DNA from: a bacterium
GTDB taxonomy: Bacteria; Patescibacteriota; Microgenomatia; UBA12405
DNA length: 47,269 bases
Assembly: GCA_021817905.1 (NCBI GenBank)
Contig: JAKAFM010000007.1
Span: forward strand, 1 to 47,269
Direction: 5' to 3'
The first letter of the stretch is position 1; the number at the start of each line of letters is the position of its first letter. The position numbers and the translations under genes are program-made. The notes beneath the pieces are model-generated. The model was not told the origin of the DNA. It searched no databases and was given only the letters and a program-made list of their open reading frames with translations. Shown one piece after another: positions 3,922 through 3,993 of this stretch.

Positions 3922-3993
3922 TAGGGTAATCCGGTGGACACCGGATCTGATGAGCTCTAATTGTTTAACTACAATCCCGAGGGCGAAACCCTA
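3922..3993 (+). ncRNA. Hammerhead ribozyme, type III (stem III open)
   Basis: Stem III TAGGGT (3922-3927) / ACCCTA (3988-3993); H17 = A3928; stem I ATCCGGT-GGAC-ACCGGAT (3929-3946); CTGATGA 3947-3953; stem II GCTCT (3954-3958) / AGGGC (3980-3984, one G-U); GAAA 3985-3988. All core positions match the hammerhead consensus. Confidence 0.85.

Follow-up and report, generated by a model that had tools for sequence, protein, structure and literature searches.

A chromosomal type III hammerhead ribozyme of Patescibacteria as a putative intercistronic site of mRNA 3′-end formation

Hammerhead ribozymes (HHRs) of bacteria and prophages flank genes, and it has already been proposed that they divide long phage transcripts into single-gene mRNAs (Perreault et al. 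2011, PMC3088659). The main text of that study mentions neither terminators nor exonucleases, and the function of prokaryotic hammerheads has been called an open question (PMC6155905). Our search of the open literature found no paper on hammerheads in Patescibacteria/CPR, which is weak evidence, with subscription papers and preprints outside its scope. The open literature that we searched described neither the adjacency of a hairpin and an HHR nor a chromosomal CPR set.

Here we describe an HHR in a 47,269-nt stretch of a Patescibacteria contig (the window, meaning the whole stretch of DNA analysed). The source genome is 817 kb long and, among named lineages, closest to Candidatus Shapirobacteria and Woesebacteria. 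Genes were called as the longest ORFs on MAG contigs (Table 1), and the calls agree with the earlier note in placing the ribozyme between a gene for an extracytoplasmic protein, here membrane-anchored, and a GT2-family glycosyltransferase (GT) gene. The upstream ORF (gene X) ends with a TAG at 3806-3808 and is also open from a TTG at 2828; the top protein record is 287 aa long, in agreement with a start at 2945. No Pfam family matched the gene X protein, which has 15 relatives in the protein database, the named ones being Patescibacteria. A hairpin begins 13 nt past the gene X stop, and pyrimidine-poor spacers similar to the one behind it occur in G026, G012, G036, G011, G061 and others. The GT gene and the 915-aa membrane protein gene are probably in one transcription unit; a gene resembling the latter comes after GT in L059, L002 and L008. 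Elsewhere, the window contains a ribosomal protein L10 leader (35181-35292; RF00557, 55.4 bits, above the cut-off), after which comes an ORF at 35375-35887.

Table 1. Features of the locus around the hammerhead ribozyme
Feature	Positions	Strand	Basis
Gene X, orphan protein of 287 aa; one TM helix predicted, extracytoplasmic domain	2945..3808	+	ORF, protein relatives
Hairpin TCACAGAGTCAACC-TTCG-GGTTGACTCTGTGA, 14 bp, UUCG loop	3822..3853	+	Folding; family-wide hairpin test
Pyrimidine-poor spacer (...AAGCAAAGAAAAAGAAAGAGAT), hairpin to ribozyme	3871..3921	+	Sequence, relatives
Type III hammerhead ribozyme (HHR)	3922..3993	+	Core and stems read off the sequence, RF00008 fit, fold, covariance model
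GT2-family glycosyltransferase (GT), 288 aa	3993..4859	+	PF00535, E 3e-36
915-aa membrane protein gene	4859..7606	+	ORF; ATG at 4859 overlaps GT stop

Each hammerhead element quoted in the earlier note is present at its position. Stem III pairs TAGGGT (3922-3927) with ACCCTA (3988-3993), stem I pairs 3929-3935 with 3940-3946 around the loop GGAC, and stem II pairs 3954-3958 with 3980-3984 and has an extended arm. The core holds CUGANGA (CTGATGA, 3947-3953), GAA (3985-3987), an H at position 17 (A3928, triplet GUA) and the 15.1-16.1 pair (A3988-U3927). The minimum free energy fold of 3920-3996 is the exact hammerhead structure (-23.1 kcal/mol, z -2.1); of its three helices, stem III is open and stems I and II each end in a loop. 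Cleavage is predicted between A3928 and A3929. A3993 is both the last base of stem III and the first base of the GT2 ATG. Loop I could, by sequence, pair with CCC at 3976-3978 as a candidate loop I-loop II contact; in relatives, loop I is often TGTG and loop II often AAAA or GAAA.

The Rfam search proposed in the earlier note named the right family, RF00008 (type III) being the sole fit, at a score of 17.5 bits (E 0.26 over 211 nt) that lies under the gathering cut-off of 48.5 bits, a database criterion and not a biochemical definition. At the gathering score neither the window nor any of 20 related loci yielded a hammerhead, and an RF00008 scan of the whole source genome gave no hammerhead match. 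Because clear relatives also fail (these 20 loci, and L054 with only 23.9 bits under RF00008), we regard the low score as a threshold effect.

A DNA search of relatives returned orthologous GT genes with hammerheads at the same place and with different stem sequences. We built a covariance model, R1, from six relatives, leaving the window out and using short-loop members only, long-loop members having been misplaced in first alignments. R1 scores the window HHR at 40.8 bits (E 4.6e-11) and, at E values up to 0.1, matches 29 of the 38 family genomes, with up to seven HHRs per genome. With a second model (R2, built from 48 family members), at least one HHR was found in 72 of 401 class genomes (E 1e-4) and in 49 of 401 phylum genomes (E 1e-5). 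The source genome holds one HHR matching these models. Altogether, the family, class and phylum (Patescibacteria/CPR) of the source genome yielded about 150 such HHRs, and the curated Rfam threshold passes over this group, present in roughly 12-18% of sampled CPR genomes. Successive HHRs in single regions, each behind a small orphan gene, were seen in L071, L082, L146 and L194.

All three stems show abundant compensatory change across these relatives. Among 58 family matches, 95.6% of stem cells are paired, compared to 63.5% after shuffling and 29-47% after sliding, and double changes number 283 versus 84 in shuffles. The 96 matches outside the family behave alike (93.9% versus 59.0% shuffled; 547 double changes versus 160). 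CTGANGA is perfect in 141 of 150 HHRs and GAA in all 150, while H17 is C in 99, U in 35, A in 16 and never G. In nine of the 150 the 15.1/16.1 pair has switched from A-U to U-A, the partner changing every time; the NHH rule permits this flip (PMC3088659). Since the set was found with models, part of the core conservation is built in, and stem covariation is therefore the stronger evidence. Core and pairing are nonetheless intact in nearly all copies despite full turnover of the stems, and thus selection acts on activity. Compensatory stem changes at the conserved GT start, the comparative support that the earlier note had called for, were found in relatives. Together with the sequence, the fold and the relatives' covariance model, they bear out its reading of a type III HHR with the start-codon A inside stem III, and at the level of sequence comparison the window HHR is confirmed as a genuine type III hammerhead and not a chance one.

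The most regular neighbourhood of these ribozymes lies upstream. The nearest upstream gene is co-directional in 48 of the 53 family HHRs with a callable upstream gene, and its stop codon lies 56-163 nt before the HHR in 46 of those 48. The stretch between stop and HHR carries a hairpin (median z -6.2 versus -0.5 in controls; median 24 pairs), with z below -3 in 91% of family stretches versus 18% of 228 control 3′ flanks. The gap between this hairpin and the HHR is 0-3 nt in 34 of 47 members of the family and 14-53 nt in about a quarter. In the window, the gene X stop lies 113 nt before the HHR, within the limit of about 160 nt set for the stop-hairpin-HHR order, and the strong hairpin at 3822-3853 is the conserved one; its gap to the ribozyme is 68 nt, and direct adjacency, although common in the group, is not seen in every member. 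Beyond the family, upstream distances spread widely, and about 60% have a clear hairpin.

The upstream proteins have no common family, their clusters being small and mostly without Pfam. One or two TM helices are predicted in 53% of them, versus 21%, and Pfam finds 6 families in 45 of these proteins versus 74 in 56 control proteins. The upstream hairpins of L055, L056, L058 and L059 have in common an asymmetric internal loop whose 5′ side carries AAGCTCTT, perhaps a candidate binding site. An integron attC-like identity of the hairpin was considered and rejected, no conserved core sites past the hairpin being visible by eye.

The same layout of stop codon, hairpin and HHR is found in type III HHRs of IMG/VR phage contigs. 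A scan with a hammerhead core pattern, for which a short stem II was chosen and which therefore yields a sample and not a census, gave 71 matches in 69 contig stretches, 63 of the 71 being type III. Of 58 distinct phage HHRs, 41 have a hairpin that ends 0-3 nt short of the ribozyme, often right behind a stop codon; the hairpin z is below -2 in 69% versus 7% of controls. On these contigs a start codon often follows about 20-30 nt past the HHR.

The order of stop codon, hairpin and ribozyme makes 3′-end formation the simplest reading. We propose, with a probability of about 0.6, that this chromosomal hammerhead is an intercistronic, 3′-end-making RNA processing site that would split the X mRNA from the GT mRNA. 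Gene X, hairpin, hammerhead and GT gene would be transcribed as one RNA, in which the hammerhead would fold and then cut between 3928 and 3929. The upstream product would be an X mRNA with a stable hairpin near a new 3′ end bearing a 2′,3′-cyclic phosphate; such a hairpin should resist 3′-5′ exonucleases and may thereby stabilise the message. The downstream product would be a 5′-OH GT mRNA whose leader consists of the two remaining hammerhead hairpins with the AUG directly after, so that the two mRNAs would be uncoupled.

Some observations count against this model. The X mRNA from the window would keep a 75-nt single-stranded tail, owing to the 68-nt spacer, unlike most relatives; outside the family, the looser upstream distance and less frequent hairpin fit it less well; and the GT start has a conserved position relative to the HHR. 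A broader version, in which hairpin and hammerhead form a general mRNA 3′-end maker, is tentative and in our view has somewhat less than an even chance. There the ribozyme would replace the U-tract of an intrinsic terminator, in a device common to Patescibacteria chromosomes and phages; in the window's family, it would have been retained for genes of orphan membrane proteins.

The downstream side is more varied. The downstream gene is co-directional in 37 of 54 family HHRs, at distances from overlap to 625 nt, and the context ranges from a GT start codon (13 genomes) to terminators and convergent or distant genes. A GT orthologue is present in 15 of the 38 family genomes, and the HHR adjoins its start in 13 of these 15. 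The arrangement of HHR and start codon noticed in the window thus recurs in 12 further family genomes, and in all 13 cases the offset of the start codon from the HHR end is between -2 and +9 nt, which suggests some downstream role too. The ribozyme is separable from GT, because each occurs without the other. In G036 and G011, spacer and ribozyme are kept with a convergent gene in place of GT; in G013 a terminator comes after the ribozyme. Conversely, G030 has a plain hairpin without an HHR between GT and a different gene, and in G027 an X-type gene keeps hairpin and HHR, with more genes, and a hairpin whose tail is T-rich, between it and GT. A second context recurs inside and outside the family (L061, L080, L136, L170): there the HHR lies close to, or right at, the start of a gene labelled as adenylosuccinate-synthetase-like from sequence resemblance. 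In G033, an RNase P RNA match (RF00373 model; L062:3147-3422, minus strand) lies convergent to the HHR at 3053-3105.

According to the translation switch for GT proposed in the earlier note, folding of the ribozyme would cover the start region and cutting would release both ribosome-binding elements. In the type III architecture, the 3′ cleavage product retains stems I and II as hairpins. Thermodynamic prediction accordingly gives the SD-like GAGGG (3980-3983) identical pairing, and unchanged accessibility, in the uncut and the cut RNA; it also allows the released ACCCU strand to pair with AGGG. Only A3993 is predicted to change, with an unpaired probability of 0.16 for the isolated HHR and of 1.0 for the 3′ product; this base and the closeness of HHR and GT start are what speak for a switch. 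Against it, most family HHRs have no start codon at the ribozyme. Since the HHR is kept without GT downstream in L060, L100 and L102, while GT lacks an HHR at its start in G030 and G027, and since family HHRs track the upstream stop and hairpin, a GT switch cannot be the general function, and we consider it unlikely.

In the window, an SD-like motif was found at 4 of the 29 gene starts checked, and the 16S anti-SD is intact in the source bacterium, whose sequence suggests mostly leaderless mRNAs. A TATAAT-like box only about 6-10 nt before an ATG without an SD-like motif was seen at many genes, among them those starting at 12352(-), 28464(-), 32155(-), 39677(-) and 41004(-).

Alternatively, the hairpin could be a mere folding insulator that prevents wrong pairing between coding RNA and the ribozyme, cleavage serving the 5′ end of the downstream RNA. 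Hairpins often adjoining the HHR and the frequent phage start codon shortly after it would agree with this; however, HHRs before an intrinsic terminator or a convergent gene leave no downstream message to shape, which makes the insulator distinctly improbable. An intrinsic terminator comes directly after 8 of 150 HHRs and after none in shuffles. Sigma-70-like promoters after HHRs show no excess in the family (6 versus 6.7 shuffled) and a mild excess outside it (19 versus 10).

The HHRs might also be relics or passengers, brought in with phage-like gene blocks or mobile DNA and without a host function. Prokaryotic HHRs are often found in prophages, beside small non-conserved ORFs (PMC3088659, PMC6155905), the phage contigs share the hairpin-HHR layout and the upstream proteins are mostly orphans. 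Yet PHROG matches are few among the upstream proteins, the locus in the window resembles a normal chromosomal region of envelope genes, and core and pairing have outlasted the turnover of the stems, so that we hold this origin to be very doubtful. Chance resemblance to a hammerhead, to which only the score under the Rfam cut-off points, has a negligible probability, being refuted by the E value from the independent model and by covarying ribozymes at the same locus in relatives.

Several described systems resemble the proposed RNA processing site in part. The mammalian Clec2 discontinuous hammerhead (PMC6155905) is also type III-like and lies in a 3′ UTR, but it is eukaryotic, has a very large helix I and has been linked by proposal to polyadenylation. 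HHphage of the haloviruses HF1/HF2 (PMC3088659) lies 13 nt upstream of the start codon of a helicase gene; it belongs to an archaeal virus and has a variant fold, whereas in the present ribozyme stem III takes in the first AUG base. In outline, the cip-cel operon of Ruminiclostridium/Clostridium cellulolyticum (PMC10311766, PMC4423207) also combines intercistronic processing with stem-loops on which the fate of the products depends; there a protein nuclease cuts, whereas here the RNA itself would do so. The closest likeness is to the HHRs of Perreault et al. 2011 (PMC3088659), which have a self-cleaving core between genes, sometimes several per region, near orphan ORFs. Unlike these, the present ribozymes are chromosomal, recur across Patescibacteria and follow a fixed order of stop codon, hairpin and HHR. 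With about 50 copies in one CPR family and further ones on phage contigs, this order would point to a specific function, namely ribozyme-made, hairpin-protected mRNA 3′ ends.
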